This document shows positions 44,915-64,000 of a stretch of 64,000 nucleotides of DNA, one piece after another. Position 1 is the stretch's first letter; every line of letters starts with the position of its first letter. A program made the translations under genes and the position numbers. Origin of the DNA: Streptomyces sp. SPB162 (GTDB lineage: Bacteria; Actinomycetota; Actinomycetes; Streptomycetales; Streptomycetaceae); assembly GCF_029504575.1 (NCBI RefSeq), contig NZ_JAQFII010000002.1:62001-126000 (forward strand). The letters are read 5' to 3'. The notes under the pieces were generated by a model. That model made no database searches. It saw nothing but the letters and a program-made list of their open reading frames with translations, and had not been told where the DNA came from.

Positions 44915-44928
44915 GTCGGCGCCGGCGG

Positions 44929-45087
44929 TCAGACGTCGTCGCCCCGGGCGGGGGTGGCGGCCGGGCGTTCGGGAGTCTCCCGCACGTCATGGTCGGTGGG
45001 CCGGCCGGGCTCGCCCTCCGGGACGGCGGCGCGGGCGACTTCGGCACGCAGCATGGCGTTCAGGGCCGCGAAAGGGTCGATGGGCAT
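44929..45087 (-). CDS. 52-residue hypothetical protein
   Basis: A short protein (MPIDPFAALNAMLRAEVARA, then an acidic disordered tail ending RGDDV) with a strong GGAGG site 7 bases before ATG 45087 and a terminator right after it. The N-terminal helix is amphipathic; there is no signal peptide or cysteine. Similar MPIDPFAALNAM-type short proteins occur in streptomycetes, but no function is known. Confidence 0.6.
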   Translation of the reverse strand: MPIDPFAALNAMLRAEVARAAVPEGEPGRPTDHDVRETPERPAATPARGDDV

Positions 45088-45163
45088 GCAGAGTCCTCCG
45101 GGATCGGGAAGTGGGGCCGGCGTGCGGAGCGGAAGGGGGCCGGAAAAGCGGCCCTCGGTCCGG

Positions 45164-45550: not shown

Positions 45551-45814
45551 GGATCGGACCTCCTGATCACGGGTCCTATCCGCATTCCGTCCTGTGATCA
45601 CCTGCCGGCCGTCCGCGTCCCCCGCTTGGCCTGCGGTTTCATTCGAATCGGCGAGTCCGCGCACACGCGGTGTGACGGGCCCGGGCGCTACCGGATACCC
45701 GCGCGGAACGTTCCACGTGGGATGCTGGGAAGTGACGGCCGTTCTCGAGGCCGCAATCGCCACCGTCCGGACCGTTCCGGGTGGCCCCGTTCTGTGAAAC
45801 CTGACGAAGGTGCC

Positions 45815-46042
45815 ATGACCACGCTTTTCTCCAACCCTGATCCCTCCACGCCGGTCGCGCCGCATACCTCGCCGGTCCCGTCGACCGACCCCTTCCACCA
45901 GGCCGACCTGGGCGACGACCCGGACGCGCGGTACGAGGACGAGGACGAGCACGGGGACGTGAAGGCCGACCTGACCGCTCCCCCGGCACCGCCGGCGCAG
46001 ACCCGGTCCCGGCGCACGTCGCGGCCCGCCGCCAGGCGGTAG
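45815..46042 (+). CDS. 75-residue acidic/Pro-rich hypothetical protein
   Basis: It starts MTTLFSNPDPSTPVAPHTSP and continues with an acidic middle (DLGDDPDARYEDEDEHGD) and a basic end (TRSRRTSRPAARR). The charge gradient and low complexity indicate an intrinsically disordered protein. GAAGG lies about 7 bases before the ATG. No function can be proposed. Confidence 0.45.
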   Translation: MTTLFSNPDPSTPVAPHTSPVPSTDPFHQADLGDDPDARYEDEDEHGDVKADLTAPPAPPAQTRSRRTSRPAARR

Positions 46043-46155
46043 TGCTTCGTAGGACCCGCCTCCCACCTGGCCTTTCGAGCTCGGGACGGTGCGCGCCGCG
46101 TCCGGCGCGCACGCGGGACCCACGGAGTGTCAGACCCACGCGGCAGACTGTGCAC

Positions 46156-46401
46156 ATGGACGCCGCAGACGACGAACTCGCCATCCTGCAAGCCCTCCAC
46201 GCACATGCCCGCGCCGTGGGAGAGGACCCGGGCCTGGTCGAGGATCTCATCGGCCTCGTACGGGGCTTCGGCTCGCTCGACGCCGCCGCCGAGGCGTCGG
46301 CAGAGGCCGAGCGCCGTACGGACGCCCAGACCCGGGAGCTGTCCGCGAAGATCGATCTTTGGTGCAACCTGCCCGACACCGACCGCAGTCGGCACCGGTA
46401 G
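46156..46401 (+). CDS. 81-residue helical hypothetical protein
   Basis: The protein (MDAADDELAILQALHAHARA, then VGEDPGLVEDLIGLVRGFGS and an Ala/Glu helix) is predicted to be all-helical and acidic, without membrane segments. The ribosome site is weak, which lowers confidence. A terminator follows 46 bases after the stop, which supports a real transcript end here. Confidence 0.5.
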   Translation: MDAADDELAILQALHAHARAVGEDPGLVEDLIGLVRGFGSLDAAAEASAEAERRTDAQTRELSAKIDLWCNLPDTDRSRHR

Positions 46402-46446
46402 GCGGTACGGCCCGGCGGGTCCTTCGCGGGACCACCTACGGACACG

Positions 46447-46488
46447 CGTCGGCCCCGCGACCCGAGGGGGGTGGGCGCGGGGCCGACG
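46447..46488. terminator. 13-bp perfect stem terminator
   Basis: CGTCGGCCCCGCG pairs perfectly with CGCGGGGCCGACG across a 16-base loop. It lies between the small rightward gene and the convergent ATPase gene. The following stretch to 46846 shows no gene. Confidence 0.8.
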
Positions 46489-46846
46489 GCGCCGGGCGGT
46501 GTCCTCACAACCCCGCCCGGCGGGAAACGCCCGGGAACCAGTCGGGCGTTCTGGTCTGCGCGCGGCCCGGCCGGGTGATCGGTGGACCGGGGGAAGACCA
46601 CCGAGACCTCGGTTCGGGCCGCGCAGTTTCATGGTGCAGCCGGGGGTCCCTCCTGCTCAACCCGGCCGCTCCCCTGACGCATGCCCGCCCGACCCCTGAT
46701 CATTCCTCCGGAGCGACGGGGTATCTGGCGCACCGCCGAAAAGCGTTCTCCGAACTCCGCCCGCACTCGTGGGGCGAGCGGCCGTCGGGCGGCCTGACGC
46801 ATCGTCTGTCCACGACTCCCGGTGACAAACCCTCGCTCGCGCCGTC

Positions 46847-47650
46847 TCATCCGGCGGCCGTGGCCCGTTCGACCAACTGCAGCGCGAGCGGGTCTGCGGC
46901 GTAGACGATCCGCACGACGCCGTCGGCGTGCCGGTCCGCGCTGGCCGCGACCCCGAAGACGTCGCGCAGCACCACCGGGGTGAGCACGTCCAGCACCGGC
47001 CCTGCCGCGACCACGGCGCCCTGTTGCAGGACGACGAGGTGGTCGCAGAGCCGGACGGCGAGGTCCAGGTCGTGCAGGACCGCCAGCGTGGTGGTGCCGA
47101 TGGCCCGGATCAGCGAGAGCAGCTCGAAGCGCGCGCGGATGTCGAGGTGGTTGGTGAGCTCGTCCAGCACGAGTAGGTGCGGGCGCTGGGCCAACGCCCG
47201 GGCCAGCAGCACCCGTTGCCGCTCCCCGCCGGAGAGCGAGGCGAAGTCGCGGTCGGCCAGCGGGCGGGCGCCGCACTGGTCCAGCGCCCGCTCGACCGCC
47301 TCGTGGTCCTCGGGGCCGTCCCGGCCGAGCAGGCCGTGGTGCGGGGTGCGCCCCAGCGCCACGATCTCCCGCACGCACAGCCCCGTCGCATGGCCCACGT
47401 CCTGCAGGACCGCGGCGGTGCGGCGGGCGGCGGCGCGGGCGGGGATCGTCCAGATGTCGTCCCCGCCCACGCACACCGCCCCGCCCTCCGGCCGCAGCGA
47501 GCGGTAGACCGAGCGCAGCAGCGTGGACTTGCCGCTGCCGTTCGGCCCGACGAGCCCGACGATCTCGCCGGACCCCACCTCCAGACAGACGTCCCGCAGG
47601 ATGGGCCGGCGATCCAGGGTGACGTCGAGCTGGTCGACGCTGAGTCTCAT
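46847..47650 (-). CDS. Metal-chelate ABC transporter ATPase (FecE/FepC type)
   Basis: A 267-residue ATPase. Walker A is VGPNGSGKSTLLRSVYRSLR near residue 38; the signature is SLSGGERQRVLLARAL, Walker B LLVLDELTNHLD, and the switch His is in AVLHDLDLAVR. In Walker B the usual DEPT is DELT. ATGA overlap (47647-47650) couples it to the permease. It is the last gene of the leftward run that starts with the isonitrile lipopeptide genes, so it probably powers re-import of the metal-loaded product; that link is inferred from position. Confidence 0.92.
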   Translation of the reverse strand: MRLSVDQLDVTLDRRPILRDVCLEVGSGEIVGLVGPNGSGKSTLLRSVYRSLRPEGGAVCVGGDDIWTIPARAAARRTAAVLQDVGHATGLCVREIVALGRTPHHGLLGRDGPEDHEAVERALDQCGARPLADRDFASLSGGERQRVLLARALAQRPHLLVLDELTNHLDIRARFELLSLIRAIGTTTLAVLHDLDLAVRLCDHLVVLQQGAVVAAGPVLDVLTPVVLRDVFGVAASADRHADGVVRIVYAADPLALQLVERATAAG

Positions 47651-48696
47651 ACGGAATCCAAGCTCGTGTTGCGGCGCAGCAGCCACAGGAAGAACGGCGC
47701 GCCGAAGAGGGCGGTGAGGATGCCGAGCGGCAGTTCGTTGGGCCGGTCCAGAGTGCGCGACAGGAGGTCGACGACGACGAGGTAGATCGCGCCGGTGGCC
47801 GCGGCGAGCGGGAGCAGCCTGCGGTGGTCCGCGCCGACGGCGAGCCGCACGAGGTGCGGGATCATCAGGCCGACGAAGCCGATGCCGCCCGCGACCGCGA
47901 TGATGGTGCCGGTCAACAGCGAGGACAGCACCAGCAGCGCGGCCCGCAGCCGGTGCACCTCCACCCCGAGTGCCGTCGCGGACTCGTCCCCGGCCAGCAG
48001 CGCGTTCAGTCGCCGCCCGTACAGCGCGAGGGCGACCGTCGTCCCGAGCACGGCGCCGCTCACCAGCGGCAGTTGGCTCCACTGTGCCCCGGCGACGCTG
48101 CCGAGCATCCAGAACATCACCGAGCGCAGCTCGTTGGGGGTGGCCCGGAGCTGCAGATAGCTGGTGGCCGCGAGGAACAGGTAGCCGATGGCGACACCGG
48201 ACAGCACCAGACGGGTGGGAGCCAGTCGGCCGCCGCGCCGGCCGAGGAGGAAGACGAGGGCGACGGCCGCGACGGCGCCGGCGAACGCCGCCGAGGAGAC
48301 GCCCAGGCCGCCGAGGGCGCCGGTGGTCAGCGTCATGACCAGCACGGCACCGAGCGACGCCCCGGAGGAGACGCCCAGGACGTAGGGGTCGGCCAGCGGG
48401 TTGGCGACGACGGCCTGCAGCACGACCCCGGCGACGGCGAGGCCGCCGCCCGCGAGCGCGGCGAGCAGCACCCGGGGGATACGGAAGTTCCAGACGATCT
48501 GGTCCTGGACGGGGTCGCCGGCGAAGGTGCCGCCGCCCAGGTGGGCGAGGACGATGTGCCAGACGTCCCCGAGGGGGACGTTCACGGCTCCGATGCCGAC
48601 GGCCACCATCATCACCAGAACGAGCAGGGCGAGGAGGGCGGGCAGGACAAGCAGGGCGGACAGCGGGGAGCGGGGACGCAGCGCGCGTGGGGTCAT
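47647..48696 (-). CDS. Metal-chelate ABC transporter permease (FecCD/BtuC type)
   Basis: A 349-residue permease with about ten helices. FecCD landmarks are GDVWHIVLAHLGGG, VWNFRIPRVLLAALAGGGLA, LADPYVLGVSSGASLGAVLV, GGIGFVGLMIPHLVRLAVGA and DLLSRTLDRPNELPLGILTA. A single permease gene is present, so it must act as a homodimer. It starts 10 bases after the binding-protein stop codon and overlaps the ATPase gene. Confidence 0.93.
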   Translation of the reverse strand: MTPRALRPRSPLSALLVLPALLALLVLVMMVAVGIGAVNVPLGDVWHIVLAHLGGGTFAGDPVQDQIVWNFRIPRVLLAALAGGGLAVAGVVLQAVVANPLADPYVLGVSSGASLGAVLVMTLTTGALGGLGVSSAAFAGAVAAVALVFLLGRRGGRLAPTRLVLSGVAIGYLFLAATSYLQLRATPNELRSVMFWMLGSVAGAQWSQLPLVSGAVLGTTVALALYGRRLNALLAGDESATALGVEVHRLRAALLVLSSLLTGTIIAVAGGIGFVGLMIPHLVRLAVGADHRRLLPLAAATGAIYLVVVDLLSRTLDRPNELPLGILTALFGAPFFLWLLRRNTSLDSV

Positions 48697-48706
48697 CTGC
48701 GGCGCG

Positions 48707-49771
48707 TCAGAGGGCGTCGGGGTGCAGCATCCGGGCGATGCGTTCGACGGCGACGTCGTTGCTGGGCCCGAGATAGATGGAGTCGGACAGGACCGTGAAT
48801 CTCTTGTCCCGTGCGGCGTTCCACTGCGGGAACCGCGCCAGCAGCTTGCGTGCGTAGCCGGCGGCGTCCGGGTCGTGGTAGCTGACGACGACGAGCGCGT
48901 CGACCTGCGCGGCGGCGACCTTCTCCTTGCTGAGGTCGGCGAAGGAGTTGCTCGTGACGGAGGCGAACGCGTTGGCTCCCCCGGCCTTGGCGAGGATGTC
49001 GTTCCAGATGCCGACGCCGGCGATCGAGCTGAACTCGTTCGCTCCCATCGACATGTTGGAGAAGATCACCATCACCTTCGACGGCCGTGCGGCGCCGGCT
49101 GCCGTCGCCGGCCTGGCGGTCACCTTGGTGCGGACGGCGGCGACGTGCGCGCGGGAGTCCGCGATCAGCTTCTCGGCGCGGGCGCTGACGCCGAAGATCC
49201 TGCCGAGGTCGCGCAGCATCGAGTAGCTGTCGTCGATGGACGGCGGGCCTGTGAGGGAGCCGGCGTCGTCGCAGCCCTTGACCGGCAGGTAGGTGTGCGC
49301 GCCGATCGACGCGAGGTCCTTGCGGGTGGCGTAGCCGTTCTTGGGGTCGAAGCCGAACCCTGTGGTGGACAGCACGAAATCCGGCCGCAGGTTCAGCATC
49401 GCCTCGCGCGGGATGTCCTGGATGTCGTTGAGTTTCACTCCTCCGGTGGGCAGCTTCGCGATGGCCTCGGCGCGTCCCGGTACCTCCGACATGCCGTAGG
49501 ACTGGGCGTTGGCGACGATGCGGTCACCGAGCCCGAGGGCGAGCATCGAGGACACCTCGGCGACGGACGCGCCGTTCATGACGACGACACGGCTGGGCGC
49601 CTTGGTGTACGTGGTGGTCTGCCCGCAGTCGGTGACGGTGACCGGGTAGCCGGGCCCTGGTGGTTCCGCTTTTCCGGCGGAGGCCGCCGTCCTCGACGAG
49701 GTGCCGCAGGCGGCGGTGGCCAGACAGAGTGCTCCGACCGCGAATGCGGCGGTTGGCTGTTTCCATGACAT
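48707..49771 (-). CDS. Metal-chelate ABC substrate-binding lipoprotein (FecB type)
   Basis: A 354-residue type III binding protein with lipobox TAAC (Cys near 22; GAGGAG before ATG 49771). The FecB/BtuF fold is seen in TKAPSRVVVMNGASVAEVSS, LNLRPDFVLSTTGF, VMVIFSNMSMGAN and VDALVVVSYHDPD. It begins 88 bases after the NRPS stop codon on the same strand. Adjacent to an isonitrile lipopeptide pathway, whose products bind metal, it is a good candidate to recognise that product with Cu, Zn or Fe bound. An unrelated siderophore is the alternative. Confidence 0.9.
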   Translation of the reverse strand: MSWKQPTAAFAVGALCLATAACGTSSRTAASAGKAEPPGPGYPVTVTDCGQTTTYTKAPSRVVVMNGASVAEVSSMLALGLGDRIVANAQSYGMSEVPGRAEAIAKLPTGGVKLNDIQDIPREAMLNLRPDFVLSTTGFGFDPKNGYATRKDLASIGAHTYLPVKGCDDAGSLTGPPSIDDSYSMLRDLGRIFGVSARAEKLIADSRAHVAAVRTKVTARPATAAGAARPSKVMVIFSNMSMGANEFSSIAGVGIWNDILAKAGGANAFASVTSNSFADLSKEKVAAAQVDALVVVSYHDPDAAGYARKLLARFPQWNAARDKRFTVLSDSIYLGPSNDVAVERIARMLHPDAL

Positions 49772-49859
49772 GCGGGCTCCTCGGGTGGTGCGGACTCCGC
49801 TTCAGTAGTCGGAGCGGAGTCCGCCCGGGTTCCCGGATGTCGTGAACCAGATCTCCGCA

Positions 49860-52800
49860 TCAGCGACGGGCCTGGTGGGGGACGCGGGGCCGTTGCCTGT
49901 CGGGCGGCGGCAGCGCCCCCGTCGTGACGCAGCGCTCCAGGTACCGGTGGACCAGCCGCCGGTCGATGGAGGGGCAGCTGACGCCACTGCCCCGGAGCCC
50001 GTGCAGCAGGTTGTCGGCGACGACCCGGCCCAGCCCCAGTTCGGGTTCCGCGACGGCGTCTTCCGCCGCTCCGGCGACGGGGTCGTCGGTCCGGGAGTCG
50101 AAGAACGCCAGGGTCGTGGTGGCGACGTCGGCGGCGCGCGGCAGTTCCGCCCGCCACCGCGCCAGCGGCATGCTCTCCAGCGGGTAGCCGAACTCTCGTA
50201 TCCAGGCGTAGAGATCGGCCAGCCGGACGGTCGGCACCGGCGCGTGGTTGTACACCGGCCGCTCGGCCGGAGCGCTCGCCGTCACGGCGGCGGACAGCCG
50301 GACGACGGCCCGCGCCACATAGTCGACCGGGGTCCACACCTCGGCCTCGAACAGGTCGGGCACGATGCCGGCCGGGATGCCGGCGCGCAGCACGCTCCAC
50401 AGGAAGTCGCGCTCGTTGACGTAGCCGGTGCCGGCGGCGCCGACGACCCGGCCGAGCCGGTGCACCGTGACGGGTAGCCCGCGTTCGCCCGCCTGCTCCA
50501 CCAGCCGTTCCGCGGCCCACTTGGACTGCTGGTAGCCGTGGACGAGGCCCGGATGCGGGGGCAGGAACGTCTCCGCGACCTCAGGACTCGCCCCGGCGGG
50601 CGGCGCGACGGAGAGGGTGGAGACGAGGTGGAACGGGATCGCGCGGGTCGCCGCCATCCGCAGCAGCTGCCGGGTGGACTCCACGTTGGGCCCGCGCAGG
50701 CTGGCGTACTCGCGCATGATGCTGACGGTCGCCGCGTTGTGGTAGATCGCGTCGCAGCCGGACGAGAGTTCCGCGAAGCGGCCCTCGGTGAGTCCGAGCA
50801 GCGGGCGGGCGAGGTCGCCCGGCTCGGCGACGACCCGCTGCTCCCATCCATGAGGCGGCGTCAGTTCCTGTTCGGCGAGTGCCCGGTGGATCCGTCCTTC
50901 GGCCGCCGCCCGGTCCTCGGCCCGCACCAGGCAGACGACCTCCGCGTCGGTGGCCGTCAGCAGCTCGGCGAGCAGCTGGGCCCCGACGAAGCCGGTCGCC
51001 CCGGTCAGCAGCACCCGTCGTGGCGGGGACACCGGCGGGGTGCGTCCGCCGGGGCCGACGGTGATGTCATCGTGCAGAACGGAGTCGGCGAGTACGGCCT
51101 GCGGCACCGGACCGCTTGGTGCCGCTTCGGGTACGGCCGGACCGCGCTGGTCGTCCAGATGGCGGGCGAGTTCGGCGGCCGTCGGGTACTGGAAGAGCCA
51201 GGCGACGCGGACGTCGGCCCCCAGCTCCACACCGAGCCGGTTGGCGACCTGGATCGCCTGCAGCGACTGGCCGCCGAGGTCGAAGAAGTCATCCTGCGGG
51301 GTGATGTCCGCAGTGCCCAGGACCCGCGCCCAGGCGGCGACGACGACCTGTTCCGTACGGTGCACGGCGTCATCGGTGACGTCGTCGGCGACCGGTGCCG
51401 AAGCCGCGGCCGGCGCCGCGAGCGCGTTGCGGTCGATCTTGCCCGCGCCCGTTCGGGGCAGTCGCCCGGTGAAGAGGACGGCGGACGGGATCATCGCGGC
51501 GGGCAGCGTGGTCCGCAGGTGCTCGCGCACGTCGGCGGCGGACGGCGCCGGCGGGTCCGCGACGACGTGCGCGACGAGGCGGCGCGTACCGTCCGGCAGC
51601 ACCTGCCCGACGACGGCCGCCTCCCGTATCCCCTGATGCGTGAGCAGGACGGTCTCCACCTCCGCCGGCTGCACCCGGTGCCCGCTGATCTTGAACTCAC
51701 CGTCGGCGCGTCCGACGAACCGGAGCTGTCCGTCCGTCCCGAGCCGTACGAGGTCTCCGGTCCGGTACGCGCGCGGCCGGTCCGCCGGCTCCGGCAGCGG
51801 CTGGAACCGCGCGTCGTCGCCGCCCGCGCCGCCGCGGTACCCCCGGGCGAGCGCGTCACCGACGAGATACAGCTCGCCGACCGCGGAGTCCGCGCCCGCG
51901 TCGTCCGCGGACGACAAGACGACGACGGCCCTGGTGCCGGGCAGCGGGCGGCCGATCGGGACGTCCCCGCGCGCCAGTTCCGGCACCTGCAGTTCCGCCA
52001 CGATGGCCACCACGGTCGTCTCCGTCGGCCCGTAGGTGTTGAACAGCCGAACCGAGGACCCGACGGCGTCCCGCCAGCGGTCCACCCGCTCCGGCAGCGC
52101 CGCCTCACCGCCGATGATCACGGCCCGCAGCATTGGCGGCAGCTTCGCGGCGCCGGTCGAGACCGCGTACGCCAGCTCGTGCCAGTACGCCGTTGGCAGG
52201 TCGAGGACGGTGATCCCCAGCCGCTCGCAGGACCGCGTCAGAACAGGCACGGACTCGGTCATCGCGTCAGTGCGCACCACGAGCGTGGCGCCGGCGCAGA
52301 GCGTCAGGAAGATCTCCTCCACGCTGGCGTCGAAATGCAGCGGCGCGAACTGCAGTACGCGGTCGTCCGGGCCGATCCCGTACCGGTCGCCCGCCCCCGC
52401 CACGAAGTGCGCCAGCGCGGCATGGCTGATCTCGACGCCCTTGGGCCGGCCCGTGGACCCTGAGGTGTGGATGACGTACGCGAGCCGGTCCGGGTCCGGC
52501 TCGGCAGTGCCACGCGCCGCATCCGCGACGTCCAGGGAGTCCGGTCCGTCCAGCAGGAGCTGCGGCAGCCCGCTGCCCCTGAACCGGTCGGCGTACCCCG
52601 CCGTGGTGATGACGGCCCCTGCTCCGGACTCGCCGCACAGCGTCTCGATCCGGGCGGCCGGGGCGCCGGGATCCAGCGGGCAGTAGGCGGCGCCCGCGAG
52701 GAGGATGCCGAGGATGGCGGCGACCGCGTCGATGCCGCGCGGCAGCGCGATGATCACCGTGTCCCCGGGCCCGGTGCCCTGGCCTGCCAGCCGGCCGGCC

Positions 52801-54305
52801 ACACCGCGCGCGGCCGCCAGCAGTTCCGCGTAGCTGAGCGTCGCGCCGTCGAACGCGACCGCCGTCACATCGCCGCGGGTGGCGGCGTGTTCGGCGATGA
52901 GGTCGAGGACGGGACGCGCGGGACGCGGCAGCGGTCCCCCGTCGAGGGTGACCGCGGTCCTGGTGGGCGGGGTGATGGCCCGGCGGCCGCCCAGCTCGCC
53001 CAGCGGCCGGTCCGGCGCGGCCGTCGCGTCGTTCAGCAGGGCCAGCACCGCGCTCTGGTGCCGGGCGAGCGCCGCCTCGTCGTACAGCTCCGGGTGCGCG
53101 TCGAAGGCGAACCGCAGGCCCTCGCCCTCGGCCCGGTCGTAGACGTTGACGGACAGGTCGTCGACCGGCCCCGCCGACACGTTGTGGACGGTGCTCCGGT
53201 GTCCGGCGAAGCGCAGGTCGTACTCGAACGGCATGATGTTGACGCCCGGCCCCGACAGCCGGCGCCTGCCGCCGACGAGTTTGAGTTCCCGGCGCAGGTG
53301 CTCGTACCGGTAGCGCTGGTGCGGCAACCCGGCGCGCAGTTCCGCCGAGACGCGGGTGGTGAGGTCGCGCAGCGTGTCGCCGGCGCCGACCGCGATGCGC
53401 AGCGGCAGGACGTTGCGGACCATGCACGGCACCCGCAGCGACACCGAGCCGAGCCGGCCCATCGCGGGCAGGCTGAGGATCACCTCGGGCTCGCCGGACT
53501 CCTGGGCGAGGTACCCGGCGGTGACCGCCAGCACCACGTCGGACCAGGTGACGGAGAGCTCGCGGGCCACCGCGCGCAATGTCCCGGTCTCCGGCGCGCC
53601 GAGGTCGGTCACCCGTCGCAGGAAGGTACGGGCGGGCAGCGCGGAACGCTCGGCGAGGGTGGGGACCGCCGGGCGGTCCGCGAATCGCTCCGTCCAGTAG
53701 GCCCGGTCGGCCTCCCGGCGTTTCGAGGCGAGGTAGGCCCGGTCCTCCTGGTAGACCGATTCCAGGGTGCCGAAGCCGCTCTCTCCCAGCGGTGTGCCCT
53801 GGGCCAGCGCCGTGTAGACCTGCGCGACGCGGCGGGCGACGAGCGACAGGCCGAACCCGTCGAGGGCGATGTGGTGGACGCGGTGGTACCAGAGGAACTC
53901 CGCGGGACCGGTCTGCAGCAGCGCGTGCCCGAAGACCGGGTCGTGGGCGAGGTCCACCGGGCGCGCCACGTCGCGTTCCATCCAGGCGGTGGCGGCGGCC
54001 CGCGGGTCCGGCTCCGCGGTGAGGTCCGCGGTGTGCAGCCGCCAGTCGACGGCGGGCACCGCGATCTCCCAGGGGCGGCCGTCGACCTCGGTGAACCGCA
54101 CGTTCAGCGCCTCGACCTCGCCGACGGCGTGGTGCAGTGCCTTGTCGAACGCCGCCACGTCCACCGGTCCGTGGATCTGCACGTATTCGGCGGTGTTGTA
54201 GGCAGGGCTCTCGGCGTCGAGTTGGTGGCCGGTCCAGATGCCCTCCTGCCCGGTGAGCAGGGCCCGGCGGTCCCCGGGCGCGCCGCGGGTCTCAGGCGTC
54301 GGCAT
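49860..54305 (-). CDS. scoA: Isonitrile lipopeptide NRPS (C-A-T-reductase), ScoA-like
   Basis: A 1481-residue single-module synthetase. Condensation domain about 15-440 with HHIALDG (H144, H145, D149). Adenylation domain about 470-960 (YVIHTSGSTGRPKGVEI, FNTYGPTETTV, YRTGDLVRLGTDGQLRFVGR, KISGHRVQPAEVE). Thiolation domain about 985-1060 with carrier Ser S1014 in DLGGQSLQ. Thioester reductase about 1095-1470 with GATGFVG (G1102) and Y1258/K1262 in YQQSKWA. This is the layout of ScoA and a shorter version of M. tuberculosis Nrp (Rv0101). It should acylate an amino acid (lysine in the known case) with isonitrile fatty acyl chains and release it reductively. GGAGG precedes the start, which overlaps the ACP gene. 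Confidence 0.93.
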   Translation of the reverse strand: MPTPETRGAPGDRRALLTGQEGIWTGHQLDAESPAYNTAEYVQIHGPVDVAAFDKALHHAVGEVEALNVRFTEVDGRPWEIAVPAVDWRLHTADLTAEPDPRAAATAWMERDVARPVDLAHDPVFGHALLQTGPAEFLWYHRVHHIALDGFGLSLVARRVAQVYTALAQGTPLGESGFGTLESVYQEDRAYLASKRREADRAYWTERFADRPAVPTLAERSALPARTFLRRVTDLGAPETGTLRAVARELSVTWSDVVLAVTAGYLAQESGEPEVILSLPAMGRLGSVSLRVPCMVRNVLPLRIAVGAGDTLRDLTTRVSAELRAGLPHQRYRYEHLRRELKLVGGRRRLSGPGVNIMPFEYDLRFAGHRSTVHNVSAGPVDDLSVNVYDRAEGEGLRFAFDAHPELYDEAALARHQSAVLALLNDATAAPDRPLGELGGRRAITPPTRTAVTLDGGPLPRPARPVLDLIAEHAATRGDVTAVAFDGATLSYAELLAAARGVAGRLAGQGTGPGDTVIIALPRGIDAVAAILGILLAGAAYCPLDPGAPAARIETLCGESGAGAVITTAGYADRFRGSGLPQLLLDGPDSLDVADAARGTAEPDPDRLAYVIHTSGSTGRPKGVEISHAALAHFVAGAGDRYGIGPDDRVLQFAPLHFDASVEEIFLTLCAGATLVVRTDAMTESVPVLTRSCERLGITVLDLPTAYWHELAYAVSTGAAKLPPMLRAVIIGGEAALPERVDRWRDAVGSSVRLFNTYGPTETTVVAIVAELQVPELARGDVPIGRPLPGTRAVVVLSSADDAGADSAVGELYLVGDALARGYRGGAGGDDARFQPLPEPADRPRAYRTGDLVRLGTDGQLRFVGRADGEFKISGHRVQPAEVETVLLTHQGIREAAVVGQVLPDGTRRLVAHVVADPPAPSAADVREHLRTTLPAAMIPSAVLFTGRLPRTGAGKIDRNALAAPAAASAPVADDVTDDAVHRTEQVVVAAWARVLGTADITPQDDFFDLGGQSLQAIQVANRLGVELGADVRVAWLFQYPTAAELARHLDDQRGPAVPEAAPSGPVPQAVLADSVLHDDITVGPGGRTPPVSPPRRVLLTGATGFVGAQLLAELLTATDAEVVCLVRAEDRAAAEGRIHRALAEQELTPPHGWEQRVVAEPGDLARPLLGLTEGRFAELSSGCDAIYHNAATVSIMREYASLRGPNVESTRQLLRMAATRAIPFHLVSTLSVAPPAGASPEVAETFLPPHPGLVHGYQQSKWAAERLVEQAGERGLPVTVHRLGRVVGAAGTGYVNERDFLWSVLRAGIPAGIVPDLFEAEVWTPVDYVARAVVRLSAAVTASAPAERPVYNHAPVPTVRLADLYAWIREFGYPLESMPLARWRAELPRAADVATTTLAFFDSRTDDPVAGAAEDAVAEPELGLGRVVADNLLHGLRGSGVSCPSIDRRLVHRYLERCVTTGALPPPDRQRPRVPHQARR

Positions 54306-54582
54306 GTGCGCCTCCGGACTGCCGGTCCGCCAGCAGCTGCCACCATTGGGCGAAGGAGGTGCGTTCCGCCAGTTCGACGAAGCTGACCTCGGATCCGGCC
54401 GCGCGCCAGCGCTCGGCGAGGGTGACGATGCGCAGCGAGTCCAGGCCGGCGTAGAGCGGGTTCTCCTCCAGGTCGACCTCGTCGGGCTGCTGGTGCAGGA
54501 ACTCGGCGAGGTCGGCGCGGAAGTCCGCGAGGGTCAGGGGCGTCGAGGGCGGTGAGGGCGTCAGGGGCTCAGGCACAGTCAT
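54292..54582 (-). CDS. scoB: Acyl carrier protein, ScoB-like
   Basis: A 96-residue carrier protein with the phosphopantetheine site GLDSLRIVTLAE (S49). The N-terminus is Pro-rich (VPEPLTPSPPSTP). It carries the fatty acyl chain loaded by ScoC through glycine addition and isonitrile formation. The gene overlaps the NRPS start by 14 bases, so the two are tightly coupled. It is distinct from the second carrier domain fused to the KASIII protein at 57734. Confidence 0.9.
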   Translation of the reverse strand: MTVPEPLTPSPPSTPLTLADFRADLAEFLHQQPDEVDLEENPLYAGLDSLRIVTLAERWRAAGSEVSFVELAERTSFAQWWQLLADRQSGGAHADA

Positions 54583-54625
54583 GTGGTCTCTCTCGAAGTC
54601 ACGCGGGACGTCGCGGGCGCCGGGG

Positions 54626-56233
54626 TCAGTTGACCTTGCGCCGGGCGTCGTCCCAGAAACGGTCGCGCAGCTCCCGGCGCAGGATCTTGCCGCTCGGATT
54701 GCGGGGCACGTGGTCGATGAACTCGTAGGTGGCGGGCAGTTTGAACGCGGCCAGCCGTCCTACCAGGAAGCGGTGCAGGTCCCGGGGCTTTGGCGGCTCC
54801 TGGCCGGGGACCGCGACGACGAAGGCGCGGACGCTCTCGCCCCAGCGCTCGTCCGGGGCCCCGACGACGACCGCCTCGGCGACCCCCGGGTGTGCTTCCA
54901 GCGCCGACTCGATCTCGGCGGGGTAGACGTTCTCGCCGGCCACGATGACGGCGTCCTTGATGCGGTCGCTGATGAAGACGTAGCCCTCGTCGTCCAGGTA
55001 CCCCGCGTCACCGGTGTGCACCCAGCCGTCGACGAGCGTCTCGCGGGTCTTGTCGGGCAGGCCCCAGTACTCCAGCATCCGAGCCGGTGTGGCCAGGCAC
55101 ACCTCGCCGACGACGCCGGGCGGCAGCGGTTCGCCCTTGTGGTCGATGACCTTGCAGTCGATGCCCGGGTACGGGCGTCCGGCCGCCGTCATCCGCGCCC
55201 CGCCGGGTACGTGGGCAGCGGGCGGCAGGCACACCGCCGTGTTGCCGGTCTCGGTCAGGCCGTAGATCTGGGCGAAGTCGCTGTCGAACATCGCCAGACT
55301 CTGCTCCAGCAGTGCCTCGGAGATCGGCGAACCACCGTAGACGATCTTCCGCAGGGTGTTGAAGTCCTCCGGTTTCACCCCGGGTTCGGCGAGGATCATG
55401 CGCAGCATCGCGGGCACCACGCAGGCGGTGGTGATGCCGAGGTCGCGGATGAGGGCGACGGCGTCGGGGGCGGAGAAGGCGCGCATCGCCACCACCGTCA
55501 CCCCGGCGTTGAAGTTCTGGGTGGCCCACCACAGGCCGCCGATGTGGAAGCCGGGTATGCCGACCAGGGCGATGTCGCCGGTCCTCCAGTCGATCCAATC
55601 CAAGCCCTCTCGGGCCAGTGCGTCCCGGACGGCGAAGAAACTGCGGTGCGCGAGGACGACTCCCTTGGGCAGCCCGGTGGTTCCGCTGGTGTAGAGCTGC
55701 GCTATCGGGTCGTCGGGGCCGGTCGCCGGGTGGGGATCGGTGTCCGGCTGCGCGTCCTTCCAGGACTGGTACGCCGGCCGGTCCCCGGTGGAAGCGCCGC
55801 CGAGGAGGACGACGGTGCCCGGCGGGTCGGTCGGCATCCGGTCGACGACCTGGGCGAACTCGTCCTCCAGGAAGAGCAGTGCGCTCGCCGAGTCCTCGAG
55901 GATGTGACTCACCTCGGGGGCGGTGAGCCGCCAGTTCACCGGCACCAGCACCGTTCCGCTCTTGGCGCACGCGAAGAGGATCACGTAGTAGTGCTCGGAC
56001 TCCCGGCCCAGGTACGCGACCCGCGCTCCCGGCGGCAGGCCCGCGGCCCGGATCGCGTGGGCGACGCGGTTGCTCTCCCGGTGCAGTTCCCCGTAGGTGA
56101 GCGTGCGGTCCTCGCAGCGGACGGCCACGGTCCCTGCCCGCTCAGCGGCGTGGAAGGCCGCGGTCTCCCACAGCGTCCGCAGGAACGGGTAGTACGGTTG
56201 TTCGTCGCCCGGCGGACGACCCACGGTGCTCAC
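54626..56233 (-). CDS. scoC: Fatty acyl-ACP ligase, ScoC/FadD10-like
   Basis: A 535-residue ANL-superfamily enzyme. AMP-binding motifs are LYTSGTTGLPKGVVLAHRS and YGLTETGNTAVCL; the C-terminal lobe has HTGDAGYLDDEGYVFISDR and RNPSGKILRREL with the catalytic Lys. In this gene family (FadD10, Rv0099) the enzyme activates a fatty acid and loads it on the dedicated ACP rather than on CoA. The start is GTG 56233. It is spaced 43 bases before scoB and 68 bases after scoD. Confidence 0.92.
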   Translation of the reverse strand: MSTVGRPPGDEQPYYPFLRTLWETAAFHAAERAGTVAVRCEDRTLTYGELHRESNRVAHAIRAAGLPPGARVAYLGRESEHYYVILFACAKSGTVLVPVNWRLTAPEVSHILEDSASALLFLEDEFAQVVDRMPTDPPGTVVLLGGASTGDRPAYQSWKDAQPDTDPHPATGPDDPIAQLYTSGTTGLPKGVVLAHRSFFAVRDALAREGLDWIDWRTGDIALVGIPGFHIGGLWWATQNFNAGVTVVAMRAFSAPDAVALIRDLGITTACVVPAMLRMILAEPGVKPEDFNTLRKIVYGGSPISEALLEQSLAMFDSDFAQIYGLTETGNTAVCLPPAAHVPGGARMTAAGRPYPGIDCKVIDHKGEPLPPGVVGEVCLATPARMLEYWGLPDKTRETLVDGWVHTGDAGYLDDEGYVFISDRIKDAVIVAGENVYPAEIESALEAHPGVAEAVVVGAPDERWGESVRAFVVAVPGQEPPKPRDLHRFLVGRLAAFKLPATYEFIDHVPRNPSGKILRRELRDRFWDDARRKVN

Positions 56234-56301
56234 AGCCTCTGTCCTTTCCGGGCCGCGCGCCTCCGGACGGGCGGCGGCGCGCGGCGATGTCGGGGGGACG
56301 T

Positions 56302-56835
56302 TCAGGACGCGCCGACGGCCACTCCGTCGAAGGCGTTGACGAACGCGAGTTTCACCTCACCGTCGCAGCGGCCGCCCGCCGCGTCCCAGTACCGGTAGGA
56401 GGTGTCCGCGATGATCAGCGGATCTCCGCCGCCGGGGGTGCGCCGGTCCACGGTGTGGATCTCGAATCCACCGGAGAAGGCACGGGCGTTGATGGGCCGG
56501 CGGAAACTCCCGCCGAACCGGGCGATGAGGATGTCGGGCAACTGGTGCCGCCAGTAGTCCTCCAGCGTCCAGGAGCTGAATTCCGGCAGCAGCCCTTCCT
56601 TGACGGATTTGGCGACCACGTAATACATCATCTGGTTGTAGCTGATGTTCACTTCGACCGCGTTCAGATGGCCCGTGTCGTCGATGTAGCACGACTCGCC
56701 GATGGAGAACTCGCATGCGGCCGAGACCCGGCCGTTCTCCACAGTGACCACGGCGGACCGGAGATATTTGCAATGCGCCTTGTAGGGCCGCAGCACCCGC
56801 GGCAGGAGTTCGGTGTCGGTATCGAAGGCGGTCAT
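56302..56835 (-). CDS. scoD: FcoT-type thioesterase/glycine-adding enzyme, ScoD-like
   Basis: A 177-residue hot-dog-fold protein of the FcoT family (Rv0098). Visible family pieces are PYKAHCKYLRSAVVTVENGR, YIDDTGHLNAVEVNISYNQM, FSSWTLEDYWRHQLPDILI and the C-terminal AFVNAFDGVA. Work on ScoD homologues assigns it to the addition of glycine to an alpha,beta-unsaturated acyl-ACP and thioester release, giving the N-carboxymethyl-3-amino acid used by ScoE. Only 4 bases separate it from scoE. Confidence 0.92.
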   Translation of the reverse strand: MTAFDTDTELLPRVLRPYKAHCKYLRSAVVTVENGRVSAACEFSIGESCYIDDTGHLNAVEVNISYNQMMYYVVAKSVKEGLLPEFSSWTLEDYWRHQLPDILIARFGGSFRRPINARAFSGGFEIHTVDRRTPGGGDPLIIADTSYRYWDAAGGRCDGEVKLAFVNAFDGVAVGAS

Positions 56836-56839
56836 CGCC

Positions 56840-57730
56840 CTACGCCGCCGGGATCTCGTCGTAGAGCTTGCGCTCGTCGTGCACCGTGACGCGGAAGGAG
56901 ACGGTCGGCTCCGGCGCGGCGGTGTGCAGGGCGCGGTGGATCAGACTGCGGTTGTCCCAGACCAGCAGGTCGCCCTGCTCGAAGGTCTGCAGGTGGATGC
57001 CGGGGTGGGTGAACTCCTCGTCCAGTTGTCCGGTGGCCTCGAACAGCCGCCGCAGCAGCGCCTCGTCAAGCGGACGGCCGTCCGCGTCCTCCATACCGAC
57101 GGTGAAGCCCTCGCTCAGGTACAGCACCGTCTCGCCGGTGAACGGATGGGTGAAGGTGGTGGGCTTCACCACCGGCGGGGTCTTGGTCTCGACCTCCTCC
57201 AGGATTTCGGAGAGTGGCCGGTACACGTCGTGCGGCCGGATCTTGAAGTACTTCCGTACGGAATGCCGCGCGCAGGTGCCCTCGATGTCCTGCTTCAGGT
57301 CCTCGGGCAGTGCCTCGTACGCCCGGCCCATGTCGATGAAATAGGTTCCGCGGCTCTTCTGCGGAATCACCTGTGGGTAGATGAGGGTGAGTCCGAACGG
57401 GTCGGGCATGAACATGTAGTCGGCGTGCCAGAATTTGCCGGTCTTCGGCACACCGATCTGCTTCCCGTCCTTCGGGACGTTCGAGGAGACGAATATCTCC
57501 TCGACCTCGGGGTGCTGGTACATGGGCTCGTAGTACGTCTCGGGACGGCCCAGTCGCTTGCCGAGTTCGAGGAACTGTTGGGGCGACAGGTCCTGGCCCT
57601 TCAGCACCGCGATCTTGCGCGTGTAGACCGTCTGCTTGAGCGCGGCGATGTCCTCGTCGGTGGCGGCGGCGTAGTCGAAGCCCTCGATGCTCGCACCGAG
57701 CGTCTTGCCGTCCTGCGGAGTGATCTTCAT
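56840..57730 (-). CDS. scoE: Fe(II)/2-oxoglutarate isonitrile synthase, ScoE-like
   Basis: A 296-residue TauD/TfdA-family oxygenase. The iron triad is H102 and D104 (KFWHADYMF) and distal H265 (SLIHRALH). [15 protein letters not shown] and [14 protein letters not shown] are regions conserved in ScoE and Rv0097, where Tyr, Lys and Arg hold the carboxylates of the unusual substrate. ScoE oxidatively decarboxylates a 3-(carboxymethylamino) fatty acid to a 3-isonitrile fatty acid. It starts 3 bases after the KASIII-ACP stop codon, so both are made from one message. Confidence 0.94.
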
Positions 57731-57733
57731 GGG

Positions 57734-59119
57734 TCAGCCCTTCGTGTGGTGGGTGGTGGCCGGCGTGCCGACCGGGCCGTCGAGCTTCGCGTCGATCAGC
57801 CCTACGGTTTCCTCGAGGGTCAGGTCGCCGCGCAGTTCGTTGTCCGCGACCTCGATGCCGAGATCGCGCTCGAGGCGCATGCTGATCTCGACCATCGTCA
57901 GCGAGTCGACGTCGAGTTCGGCGAACGTCGCCTCCGGGCGGACCAGGTCCGGGTCCGCGTCGTGCAGCTTCGCGATGATCGCGACCAGCTGCTCGTAGGT
58001 GGTGCTCATGGCGGCTGTCTCCTCCGTTGTGCTTCGGGTACCGGAAGTGCTGAGGTCGGGCCACCGCAGTACGCAGGAGCCCCAGGTGAGGCCGCCTCCG
58101 AACGCGGTGAGCAGGATGCGCTGACCCGGCTGGACGACCTGCCGGGCGGCGGCGTCGGCGAGGGCGAGCGGTATCGAGGCGGCGCCGGTGTTGCCGACGG
58201 ACTCGATGTTGGACACACAGGCGGTCCTGGCGAGTCCGAGCTCGTCGGCCACCGAGTGCAGGATCCGCAGGTTGGCCTGGTGGGGCACGAGGTGGTCGAC
58301 GTCCTCGACCTTCCAGTCGGCGCGCTCCAGCACCGCGCGCGCCGAGCCGGCCATGTGGGTCACGGCGTGCCGGTAGACCTCCCGGCCGCGCATCGCGAAG
58401 CGCCGGTCCTCGCGCGTGCCGTCGCCGGCCCGCTGCCGGGAGCCGCCGGCCGCGACGATGATGAGCTCCTCGTTCGCGCCGTCACTGCCGAGGTCGAAGT
58501 GGGTGACGGCGCCGAGTTCGTCGGCGCGCCCGGCGCGCAGCACCACCGCTCCCGCGCCGTCCCCGAAGATGATCGCGTTCGCCCGGTCGTCGGGGTCGAC
58601 GATCGAGGAGTACGTGTCCGCTCCGATCAGCAGCACCCGGCGGGCGACGCCGGCCGCGATGAGCCCGGCGGCCGAGGCCAGCCCGTACACGAATCCGGTG
58701 CACACGGCGCTGATGTCGAACGCGGCCACGCCGTTCAGGCCGAGCCGGTCCGCGACGAGGGGCGCGGTGGCCGGGCAGGAGCGGTCGGGTGTGGTGGTGG
58801 CGACGATCACCGCGTCCACCGACGCGGCACCGGCGGACTCCAGCGCCCGGCGCCCCGCCTCGACCGCCAGGTCGGAGGTGGCCTGCCCGGGGTCCACGAC
58901 GTGCCGCTGCCCGATGCCGGTACGGGTTCTGATCCACGCGTCGGTGGTGTCGAGACGCCGCGACAGGTCCTCGTTGGTGACGACCCCTGGCGGCAACCAT
59001 CCGGCGATGCCGCAGACGACGGCGACGGGCGCGGCTCCTGCGGGCCGGTGGGCCGGGTGGGTCGGATCGGTGGAGGTGTCGGGTAGGGGCGGCAGGGTGG
59101 GGATGTTCGGGCTGAGCAC
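57734..59119 (-). CDS. Ketoacyl synthase III (FabH-like) fused to an acyl carrier protein
   Basis: A 461-residue protein. Residues about 30-350 are a FabH-like condensing enzyme with the full triad: C140 (ISAVCTGFVYG), His in LVPHQANLRI and Asn in ESVGNTGAASIP. After a 20-residue linker a complete ACP follows from residue 371 with S406 in DVDSLTMVEI. Directly before the ACP's own ATG (58009) lies GGAGGAG with 9-base spacing, so free ACP could also be made. The stop and start would form ATGA in another frame, the normal actinomycete coupling, so a one-base error could have created the fusion. It probably supplies a short or branched acyl chain to the isonitrile pathway. Known five-gene sco clusters lack it. 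Confidence 0.88.
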   Translation of the reverse strand: MLSPNIPTLPPLPDTSTDPTHPAHRPAGAAPVAVVCGIAGWLPPGVVTNEDLSRRLDTTDAWIRTRTGIGQRHVVDPGQATSDLAVEAGRRALESAGAASVDAVIVATTTPDRSCPATAPLVADRLGLNGVAAFDISAVCTGFVYGLASAAGLIAAGVARRVLLIGADTYSSIVDPDDRANAIIFGDGAGAVVLRAGRADELGAVTHFDLGSDGANEELIIVAAGGSRQRAGDGTREDRRFAMRGREVYRHAVTHMAGSARAVLERADWKVEDVDHLVPHQANLRILHSVADELGLARTACVSNIESVGNTGAASIPLALADAAARQVVQPGQRILLTAFGGGLTWGSCVLRWPDLSTSGTRSTTEETAAMSTTYEQLVAIIAKLHDADPDLVRPEATFAELDVDSLTMVEISMRLERDLGIEVADNELRGDLTLEETVGLIDAKLDGPVGTPATTHHTKG

Positions 59120-59228
59120 GGCGGATCTCCTCGGTATGCGTGCACTTGCGCGGCCACCACGGGCCGGGAGGGAAACGGAAACGAGTGAAGGGTCGGACGG
59201 CGGTCGGCGACGGGTCGGGCGGTCGCGT

Positions 59229-60659
59229 TCAGGCGCCGGGGCCGGGAGCCGGCACTCTGCGGAAGGCCAGCAGCACCACGGTGCCCAGACAGATGCCCGC
59301 CGCGATCACGTAGACGGCCGTGCGGATGTCGCCCAGCAGGGCGAGACGCAGCGCGTCACCGTGCAGGGCGCCGTGCCGGCCGGTGTCGGCGACGGCCACC
59401 AGCACCGCGAGGCCGACCGCGCCACCGACCTGCAGGGTCGTGGACGCGAGGCCCGACGCGACACCCTGGTCCCCGGGCGCGACCCCGGCGGCCGCCGCGA
59501 TCCACATCGCGGTCCATCCGGCGCCCTGCCCGGCGCTCAGCAGCACGATCCCCGGCAGCACCCGCGCGTACGAACCGTCGGCGGTCAGCCCCGGCGCGAG
59601 GACGGCGACGCCGGCGGCGCCCAGCAGCAGGGATCCCAGCAGGGTCTTCGTCATCCCGATCGCACCGACCGCCAGTTCGCCCACCTTGGTGCCGGCCGCC
59701 ACCACCAGCGCCGGGACGAGGAAGGCGAGCCCGGTCTGCAGGGCGCTGTAGCCGCGCACCGTCTGGAAGTACAGCGTCAGGAAGTACGGCAGCGAGCTGA
59801 AGGTGGCGCTGAACACCGCGGTCAGGGCCATGGCGGCGACCAGGCTGCGGTGGCCGAACAGCCGGGCCGGCGTGAGTGGGTCCCGGGTGCGGGTCTCGAT
59901 GACCGCGAAGGCCGCGAGCAGTGCGACGGAGGCGGCCGCGCAGCCCAGGACGGAGGCACTGGTCCAGCCGGCCTCGGGTGCGTGCACCAGGACGAAGACC
60001 AGCAGGGTGATGCCGCCGGTCGCGGCGAGCGCGCCGGCCACGTCGAACTGCCGCCGCCGCTGCCACGTCTCGTCGGCGGGGAAGAGCATCCATCCGGCGA
60101 CGGCGATCAGCACGGCCAGCGGCACGTTGACGAAGAAGACCGAAGGCCAGCCGAACGCGTCGACGAGCACGCCGCCGAGCAGGGAGCCGAAGCAGAGTCC
60201 GCCCGCGCCCGCGGCGCCCCAGACGGCGAGCGCCCGGTTGCGGGCCGGCCCCTCACTGAACAGCGTATTGATCAAAGAGAGAGTGGCGGGAAACAGCAGT
60301 GCCCCGCCGATGCCCTGGACGGCGCGGACGGCCACCAGGACGGCGGCGGATCCGGCCAGTCCTCCGACGAGGGAGGAGCCGGCGTACAGCAGGGCCGCGA
60401 CGGTGAAGATCCGGCGGCGGCCGAGCAGGTCGGTGGTCCGGCCGCCCAGCAACAGGAATCCGGCGGTGGCGACGACGTAGGCGCTGACCACCCACTGCAG
60501 GTCCTGGGCCGAGAAACCGAGGCCGCTGCCGATGCTCGGCAGGGCGACATAGACGACGTTGAAGTCGAGAGCGATGACGAGCTGAGCGGTGGCCAGAACG
60601 AACAAGGACAGTCCGAGACGTTGGCGCGTTGGAGCGGGTGGTGCCTTCAGTGCAGACAT
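59229..60659 (-). CDS. MFS exporter, DHA2 type, of the isonitrile lipopeptide cluster
   Basis: A 476-residue transporter with about 14 helices. Landmarks are LSLFVLATAQLVIALDFNVV, LQWVVSAYVVATAGFLLLGG, RTTDLLGRRRIFTVAALLYA (motif A), VRAVQGIGGALLFPATLSLI and WPSVFFVNVPLAVLIA. ATG 60659 follows AAGGGGGAAC. It is the first gene of the leftward run, 109 bases ahead of the KASIII-ACP gene, and is the likely exporter of the metallophore or a self-resistance pump. It is not closely matched to the MFS at 25049. Confidence 0.9.
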   Translation of the reverse strand: MSALKAPPAPTRQRLGLSLFVLATAQLVIALDFNVVYVALPSIGSGLGFSAQDLQWVVSAYVVATAGFLLLGGRTTDLLGRRRIFTVAALLYAGSSLVGGLAGSAAVLVAVRAVQGIGGALLFPATLSLINTLFSEGPARNRALAVWGAAGAGGLCFGSLLGGVLVDAFGWPSVFFVNVPLAVLIAVAGWMLFPADETWQRRRQFDVAGALAATGGITLLVFVLVHAPEAGWTSASVLGCAAASVALLAAFAVIETRTRDPLTPARLFGHRSLVAAMALTAVFSATFSSLPYFLTLYFQTVRGYSALQTGLAFLVPALVVAAGTKVGELAVGAIGMTKTLLGSLLLGAAGVAVLAPGLTADGSYARVLPGIVLLSAGQGAGWTAMWIAAAAGVAPGDQGVASGLASTTLQVGGAVGLAVLVAVADTGRHGALHGDALRLALLGDIRTAVYVIAAGICLGTVVLLAFRRVPAPGPGA

Positions 60660-61151
60660 GCTCGGACGTTCCCCCTTGGAATGCGCCCCTGGTCGTATGT
60701 CCGTCACACGCCGGGAGCGAGACCCGTTGTGGATCCTGACCGAGGCTCCGGAACGCGGCAAACGCCGTGCATTCGATTTGGACTGACTCAGGGTCGTATT
60801 GCGAATGCGGCTTCCGTGTGGTGCGGCTGCGCCGGCGCGTTGGAGTAACGCGGATGTGCCACCGCTAACCGGCCAAAGGAATGGGCACCAGCGGGGAAGT
60901 TGTCAACCCGCCCTGCAGTCAAACCTGCTATTTTTGGCCACCCGTGGAGCACTGCGAGGCCCAGGAGATGGCGAATTAAGGCCGCGACTTCCGTGATCCC
61001 GCCTCGTTCGCACCACAGGGGCTCTCAACAGGGGTTTTCTAGTAGTCGGATGAGGGAGTCATTCAGTTCCCGGCGTCTCCGACAATTTTCATCACACCAT
61101 ACTGGGTTGCGGATCGGCCGACCAGCCCCGTACGGCATGCAAACATGAGGA
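60660..61151. other. Divergent promoter region between metallophore and copper operons
   Basis: These 492 bases separate the leftward biosynthetic run from the rightward copper operon and should hold promoters for both. The DNA is more AT-rich than its surroundings. I saw no convincing CsoR, Zur, iron-box or other named operator, and no supported gene. Confidence 0.5.
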
Positions 61152-61463
61152 GTGGCATCGACTCCTGGGGCAGAAATTCCCGCTCCCGCACGTTCCGCCG
61201 GCTCGTGGCGTATATCCAGGGCGGCGCCACCACCGGCTCTGCTCGGATTCCTGTTGCTGTTGGCCGTCCTCATGGCAGCCTCGTTCGCGGTCGGCCGGGC
61301 GGCCGGTCCTGTCGCTCCGGGAATTCACCGGACGGGCAATGACGCACCGGGTGTCCCGGGCGAACCGTCACCCGGATCGCCGTCGGAACCGGACGGCGGC
61401 GGGATGCCGGGCATGGGCGGCATGGGGTCGCAGGGGCCCGAGATCACGGCGGCCGGACGATGA
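61152..61463 (+). CDS. Small Met-rich single-pass membrane protein of the copper operon
   Basis: A 103-residue protein with one membrane helix (LLGFLLLLAVLMAASFAVG, about residues 31-50) and a Gly/Pro/Met-rich outer tail (GGGMPGMGGMGSQGPEI) that resembles low-affinity Cu(I)-binding Met motifs. GTG 61152 is the only start that leaves the helix intact, but its ribosome site (GAGGA) is almost touching it. The stop overlaps the P-type ATPase start as ATGA, so the two are coupled. It may hand copper to the pump or receive it outside; this is inference. Confidence 0.6.
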   Translation: MASTPGAEIPAPARSAGSWRISRAAPPPALLGFLLLLAVLMAASFAVGRAAGPVAPGIHRTGNDAPGVPGEPSPGSPSEPDGGGMPGMGGMGSQGPEITAAGR

Positions 61464-63802: not shown

Positions 63803-64000
63803 CTCCGCCGATCGACGACGGCCCCGACCGGGCTCCTGCCGGGATCATCCTCGAGGTGCCGGGGCCGCTGCGCGCCGCGCTGGTCCCGGTGGCCACCTGC
63901 GTGGCCGTGCTGGCGCTGCTCACCGCCTACACGGCGACGGGCGCGGCCGGCGAACCCCCGGCCCGGATCACCGTCACCGACGCCCGCGTCCTCCGGCCCG
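63799..64000 (+). CDS. Start of a membrane-anchored, probably PCuAC-like copper protein (3' partial)
   Basis: The first 67 residues are visible. A short cytoplasmic tail and LEVPGPLR lead into one membrane helix (AALVPVATCVAVLALLTAYT), then ARITVTDARVLRP, which resembles the first strand of the PCu(A)C/DUF461 copper-chaperone fold. The start overlaps the ATPase stop as ATGA, so it belongs to the copper operon. The assignment rests on a short piece and on context; the rest lies beyond the window. Confidence 0.5.
   Translation, partial: MTPPIDDGPDRAPAGIILEVPGPLRAALVPVATCVAVLALLTAYTATGAAGEPPARITVTDARVLRP

Follow-up and report, generated by a model that had tools for sequence, protein, structure and literature searches.

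How do Gram-positive bacteria take up chalkophores, and which metal do isonitrile lipopeptides serve in nature? Such uptake is little understood, and the identity of the metal is a matter of dispute. Both questions are raised by a stretch of 64,000 nucleotides from Streptomyces sp. SPB162 (assembly GCF_029504575.1, contig NZ_JAQFII010000002.1, positions 62,001 to 126,000 of the forward strand; hereafter the window), in which ten minus-strand genes (46847-60659) had been predicted to form a complete isonitrile lipopeptide metallophore locus. The analysis described here makes it likely that this is a copper-acquisition locus, where an SF2768-like diisonitrile would be made, exported and reimported as its copper complex, under the control of a SigC-like extracytoplasmic function (ECF) sigma factor acting through two candidate promoters, P1 and P2. 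Clusters for isonitrile lipopeptides, and their role as chalkophores, have been described before (PMC9600254, PMC12140626); the locus adds another case to the known diisonitrile chalkophore clusters, and its core finding is not new in kind.

Synthesis, export and import genes at one locus

All ten open reading frames (ORFs) are intact, and transcription along the minus strand runs through genes for a major facilitator superfamily (MFS) pump, a β-ketoacyl-ACP synthase III fused to an acyl carrier protein (KASIII-ACP), ScoE, FcoT/ScoD, an acyl ligase, a stand-alone acyl carrier protein (ACP), a nonribosomal peptide synthetase (NRPS), FecB, FecCD and FecE; ORF calls and Pfam matches confirm both the order and the coordinates given by the original prediction (Table 1). 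The likeness that it had drawn to Mycobacterium tuberculosis holds as well, ScoE-FcoT-ligase-ACP-NRPS matching Rv0097-Rv0101. Since the identical order recurs in 48 named relatives, the arrangement is not a matter of chance. Among named relatives, S. fildesensis is the closest. FecE starts at the ATG at 47656 (269 aa) and not at an upstream GTG, with a 10-nt overlap with FecCD, and the longer reading of this gene, ORF 46847-48082, is over-extended. The 88-base gap between NRPS and FecB (49772-49859) is real. Downstream of FecE, ORFs at 44464-46632 are considered spurious, as Pfam does not match them and relatives lack a counterpart; an Rfam search returned nothing.

Judged by sequence, the biosynthetic part of the locus consists of five orthologues of the genes for ScoE, ScoD, the acyl ligase, the ACP and the condensation-adenylation-thiolation-reductase (C-A-T-R) NRPS, and this orthology, seen in Pfam, NCBIfam and Protein Data Bank (PDB) matches, supports an isonitrile lipopeptide locus. 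ScoE scores 522 bits against its NCBIfam equivalog (cut-off 400), aligns over its full length with S. coeruleorubidus ScoE (PDB 6dch, E 6.7e-167) and keeps the iron ligands H102, D104 and H265 together with the substrate-holding residues Y66, K163 and R280 (residue roles from PMC7949033). ScoD also exceeds its equivalog cut-off (301 vs 250 bits), with structural matches to PDB 5wsy and Rv0098 (2pfc), while the matches of the acyl ligase include the FadD10 structure 4ir7. The locus resembles the sco cluster of S. coeruleorubidus (ScoA-E, making an isonitrile lipopeptide, INLP) in having ScoE and ScoD above curated cut-offs, with the same catalytic and substrate residues; it differs in that the published pathway comprises five enzymes, whereas an exporter, an importer, a sigma factor and copper genes are added here.

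The myxochelin NRPS MxcG acylates both amines of lysine and releases its product reductively. It is the closest NCBIfam model to the NRPS of the window (1866 bits, below the equivalog cut-off of 2300) and has the same C-A-T-R architecture, although the acyl donor is different; this similarity agrees with a bis-acylated diamino acid and reductive release. The ligase, ACP, ScoD and ScoE would build a β-isocyano acyl chain, probably C4, with the KASIII-ACP assisting, and the single-module NRPS would then acylate a diamino acid, probably lysine, with two of these chains and release an SF2768-like diisonitrile by reduction. This product is predicted to be short-chain because of the KASIII, and is possibly hydroxylated by a PF05118 enzyme. 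Fusion of KASIII to ACP is limited to the clade of the window, relatives having two adjacent separate genes or none, and KASIII is dispensable, being absent between MFS and ScoE in four relatives (L053, L054, L070, L082). SF2768 is a product of strain ID71268, which is placed with S. buecherae and has the cluster for it (PMC10127220); in the type strain of that species, AC541 (L086), a syntenic locus shows the gene order of the window.

Comparison with the sfa cluster of S. thioluteus, which rests on descriptions of sfa (also where the PF05118 hydroxylase is set against SfaE), finds the same biosynthetic genes, the sfa product SF2768 being known to bind and deliver copper (PMC9600254). Two differences from sfa are the fusion of KASIII to ACP and the place of the PF05118 hydroxylase, which is encoded past the copper genes and past the window end; in S. 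orinoci (L073), an Asp/Arg hydroxylase stands downstream of the importer, similar to the placement reported for the tailoring enzyme SfaE. An ABC importer is found inside the cluster here by Pfam and synteny; an ABC transporter was reportedly also described in the SF2768 cluster by Wang et al. in 2017, with transport elements tested.

Exporter and importer are inherited together with the synthesis genes. Scanning for ScoE in one genome per species gave 57 loci, of which 52 have flanks long enough for comparison. In 48 of these 52 named loci, nearly all from Streptomyces, the NRPS gene is followed in the same orientation by FecB-FecCD(-FecE); the remaining four lack the importer, and their ScoE is the most divergent of all (63-66%). 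In nearly all relatives, the MFS gene comes before ScoE, or adjoins ScoE or KASIII; its nearest NCBIfam models are LmrA/EmrB, with a score under the cut-off. Among 298 Streptomycetaceae genomes, with producers defined by a ScoD of at least 60% identity, ScoD occurs in 22 and the receptor FecB in 36, the receptor being present in 21 of the 22 producers vs 15 of the 276 others (Fisher p ~1e-21, a value that shared ancestry inflates, as it does for the other co-occurrence tests). This strong association between importer and sco genes supports FecB as the best candidate receptor, and in that sense favours the original prediction that a cognate receptor can be identified at the locus. Widening the search to a sample of the phylum (296 genomes, that of the window among them) contributed little, ScoD and the receptor each turning up in 2. 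In the proposed mechanism, the MFS pump would export the diisonitrile, the FecB lipoprotein would capture its Cu(I) complex and FecCD/FecE would import it.

Some producers depart from this pattern. In L111 (G239), ScoE (72%), KASIII and ScoD (60%) are present and a FecBCD importer was not detected, making it the only near-orthologous producer without importer; G238 (L138) has a second FecBCDE beside separate ECF and PCuAC genes.

Copper genes around the locus

The locus does not end with its ten genes, and its description as complete was not borne out: co-conserved copper and regulatory genes lie upstream of the MFS gene, partly past the end of the window. A gene for a copper P1B-type ATPase, transcribed away from the MFS gene, is found beside the locus in ~60 related loci (some of which are one place fetched twice), and the copper and ECF gene set, in either orientation, accompanies most relatives. 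The metal is very probably copper, because the conserved neighbours are copper genes; SF2768-type diisonitriles, in addition, bind copper and mediate its uptake (PMC9600254). The P1B-ATPase and PCuAC would probably then hand copper to exported cuproenzymes.

A zinc role is claimed in print for mycobacteria, in the kupyaphores of M. tuberculosis (discussed in PMC9600254), yet a product serving chiefly as a zinc metallophore seems very improbable here: the co-conserved P1B-ATPase has a Cu-type signature (TIGR01511) and is accompanied by PCuAC and Met-rich proteins, and diisonitriles bind copper, not zinc, in that same work. Nor does it appear probable that FecBCDE imports some other metallophore, such as an iron siderophore, and stands beside the cluster for regulatory reasons only. 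FecBCD transporters usually carry iron siderophores or cobalamin, and FecB has no close relative among solved structures, the closest being iron-type binding proteins; against this, copper genes adjoin the importer also in genomes that lack synthesis, the neighbours scanned include no gene for making another metallophore, and the co-occurrence with ScoD is very strong.

The ECF factor beyond the window end may link the copper genes to a known kind of regulon. The best solved match of the homologue tested (from L048) is SigC of M. tuberculosis, which transcribes both ctpB and the nrp operon, CtpB being needed there only under copper starvation (PMC7924339, PMC9147137). The regulatory parallel is striking, and by analogy SigC-type control may apply at the streptomycete locus too. 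Rv0096-Rv0101 (nrp) shares with it the five-gene order, a nearby copper P-type ATPase and, putatively, this SigC-type control; it differs in that PPE1 takes part in M. tuberculosis, and in that neither sigC nor a FecBCD importer is described in that locus. The locus of the window showed neither a PPE gene nor a further NRPS module. As a marker of chalkophore makers, the SigC-like ECF was rejected, since it occurs in 185 of the 298 Streptomycetaceae genomes.

Table 1. Genes and candidate promoters of the locus and of the adjoining copper genes, in window positions (values above 64000 lie beyond the window end)
Feature	Position	Strand	Basis or remark
FecE ATPase	46847..47656	-	ABC_tran PF00005 2.7e-28
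FecCD permease	47647..48696	-	PF01032 1.1e-96
FecB-type substrate-binding protein, lipoprotein-like signal, candidate Cu-chalkophore receptor	48707..49771	-	Peripla_BP_2 PF01497 9.1e-15
Candidate promoter P2, in 88-base gap	49806..49834	-	-35 GGGAAC 49834-49829, -10 CGACTA 49811-49806
NRPS C-A-T-R, 1481 aa	49860..54305	-	Pfam Condensation/AMP-binding/PP-binding/NAD_binding_4
Stand-alone ACP, DSL motif	54292..54582	-	PF00550 21.1 bits, cut-off 20.8
Acyl ligase (ScoC/FadD10-like), predicted acyl loading onto ACP	54626..56233	-	AMP-binding 1.8e-80
Predicted ScoD/FcoT (2E)-enoyl-ACP glycyltransferase	56302..56835	-	PF10862 FcoT; NCBIfam ScoD equivalog
Predicted ScoE-type isonitrile-forming Fe(II)/2-oxoglutarate oxidase-decarboxylase	56840..57730	-	Pfam TauD; NCBIfam ScoE equivalog
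KASIII fused to ACP	57734..59119	-	Pfam; Cys140/His280/Asn310 triad, ACP Ser406
MFS efflux pump (DHA2/EmrB-like), likely chalkophore exporter	59229..60659	-	Pfam MFS_1 2.5e-44
Candidate promoter P1, GGGAACT-N16-CGACTACT	61041..61071	-	~410 bp before MFS start
Small protein with single transmembrane segment, Met-rich tail (MPGMGGMGS)	61152..61463	+	similar ORF in 22 related loci
Copper P1B-type ATPase (CtpB/CopA-like)	61460..63802	+	TIGR01511 501.8 bits, cut-off 397; CPC, YN, MxxSS motifs
PCuAC-like copper chaperone gene	63799..64000, continues to ~64323 past window end	+	start approximate
AspH, Asp/Arg hydroxylase, PF05118	64361-65113, beyond window	-	
SigC-like ECF sigma factor	65110-65868, beyond window	-	
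Met-rich membrane protein	66135-67061, beyond window	-	

A shared promoter element and the 88-base gap

Are the ten genes transcribed together as one unit of synthesis, export and uptake, with an importer specific for the product of that unit, as originally proposed? They lie on the same strand with tight spacing, and the importer is present at 48 of the 52 loci and in 21 of the 22 producer genomes. A single unit is nevertheless unlikely, because the importer has a conserved candidate promoter of its own and occurs without the synthesis genes, the latter in 15 genomes. The candidate promoter emerged from an unbiased search for spaced 4-mer pairs in 74 sequences upstream of FecB, with first-order shuffled sequences as control: GGAA-N18-CGAC is present in 72 of the 74, compared to 19 of 74 for the best shuffled pair, and all 72 share the spacing GGAAC-N17-CGAC, its first base lying 26-155 nt from the FecB start. 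With the element P2 placed 35 nt before the FecB ATG, the 88-base gap probably holds an ECF-type promoter of its own for the importer.

The pattern GGGAACY-N16-CGACTACT has exactly two matches in the 7.2-Mb genome of the strain (an assembly of two contigs, 91% complete), namely P2 and P1, the latter upstream of the MFS gene. In related loci, the motif also stands upstream of AspH-MFS operons and many P-ATPase operons, and across the 298 Streptomycetaceae genomes 149 sites were listed, vs 14 for a reversed control pattern. A SigC-like ECF is present in 92 of the 95 genomes bearing the motif (Fisher p 1.6e-20, inflated by shared ancestry). Under copper scarcity, the SigC-like ECF of the locus would probably recognise this single promoter sequence at both places and so activate synthesis (P1) and uptake (P2) separately. 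A search for sigma-70 promoters and intrinsic terminators over 46000-61500 found none above chance. One producer (G209, C1:1331968-1334871) has a tandem FecB pair with the promoter motif before each copy.

Several points weigh against copper acquisition under SigC-like control. A listed ECF gene lies within 20 kb of only 73 of the 149 motif sites, and the link between sigma factor and promoter is a correlation among related genomes. In the clade of the window, the motif was not found upstream of the P1B-ATPase, and the distance between P1 and the MFS start is unusual. With 165.7 bits, the L048 homologue of the sigma factor falls short of the 219-bit cut-off of the SigC model; SigY, the named family that comes next, gives 88.5. 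For this strain, moreover, expression, product and binding are predictions from sequence.

The gap holds a second feature. Around the -10 element of P2 (49789-49823) is a 12-bp perfect dyad (GCGGACTCCGCT / AGCGGAGTCCGC), and, counting this locus, about a dozen have a perfect dyad at that position, with arms that differ between loci but match each other; most of the relatives that bear them show the divergent P-ATPase arrangement. The gap RNA folds better than 200 of 200 shuffles (z -3.6). The dyad could serve either to terminate transcription of the NRPS gene or as an operator. At the other end of the locus, a ~370-nt leader without convincing ORF (60660-61040) separates P1 from the MFS start; in the nrp operon of M. 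tuberculosis, a ppe1-5' RNA lies at the 5' end of ppe1.

Importers without synthesis genes

What does the importer do in the 15 Streptomycetaceae genomes that have the receptor and no ScoD? None of them encodes a ScoE-like protein above ~37% identity, full-length matches reaching at most 32%; a sixteenth genome in this ScoE search, G238, is the producer with a second receptor, and G135 is only 71% complete. In most importer-only genomes, FecBCDE adjoins a SigC-like ECF, PCuAC, a P1B-ATPase and a Met-rich protein. Another metallophore cluster at these loci was looked for and rejected, the neighbours scanned comprising copper genes, a transposase, a glycosidase, PepSY_TM, NicO and others, with no NRPS. 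At L134 (7648-9303) and L137 (13231-14373), the importer has as its neighbour either a PepSY_TM protein or a metal transporter of the NicO type.

A tree of 73 receptors, in which 15 tips are labelled importer-only (one of them the extra receptor of G238), interleaves these with the receptors of producers, with 6 label changes vs a shuffled mean of 13.8 (bootstrap 6-7); its strongly supported branches alone force only 1 change. Such interleaving fits repeated loss of synthesis with the receptor kept, i.e., chalkophore piracy, as a possible history. Importer-only genomes might instead use their importer for a different copper ligand, endogenous or foreign, an explanation that falls short of probable but deserves serious weight: receptor identity is just 59-66% in most of them and 38-44% in three. 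Receptors of producers outside the clade of the window, however, diverge from that of the window to the same extent (~57-67%), and the 6 label changes also speak against a separate function. A broader reading, in which a streptomycete SigC-type ECF would run a copper-starvation regulon through GGGAACY-N16-CGACTACT, synthesis and FecBCDE being separately promoted, exchangeable modules from which receptor-only diisonitrile pirates arise repeatedly, is plausible, and we put it forward tentatively. In a partial literature search, no earlier account turned up of the shared promoter, of the linked SigC-like sigma factor or of receptor-only relatives.

Apart from this locus, the first part of the window carries polysaccharide hydrolases (3071-5368, 12976-15249, 16427-18946, 33092-37222) of the types glycoside hydrolase family 16 (GH16), GH5 cellulase with carbohydrate-binding module CBM2, GH2-AbfB and alpha-1,3-glucanase with F5/8 domains. 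Two minus-strand genes are probably frameshifted, perhaps by assembly indels: a sugar-binding-lipoprotein-like ORF whose last third is out of frame (43141-44672), and a glycosyl hydrolase of family 1 with only its C-terminal 130 aa in one frame (39610-40500).

For the disputed metal of the isonitrile lipopeptides, the copper genes conserved around the locus argue for copper. The precise promoter offers a simple handle on the control of the locus, and the receptor-only relatives are natural test strains for the recognition of diisonitrile-copper by FecBCDE and for the exploitation of a public good.

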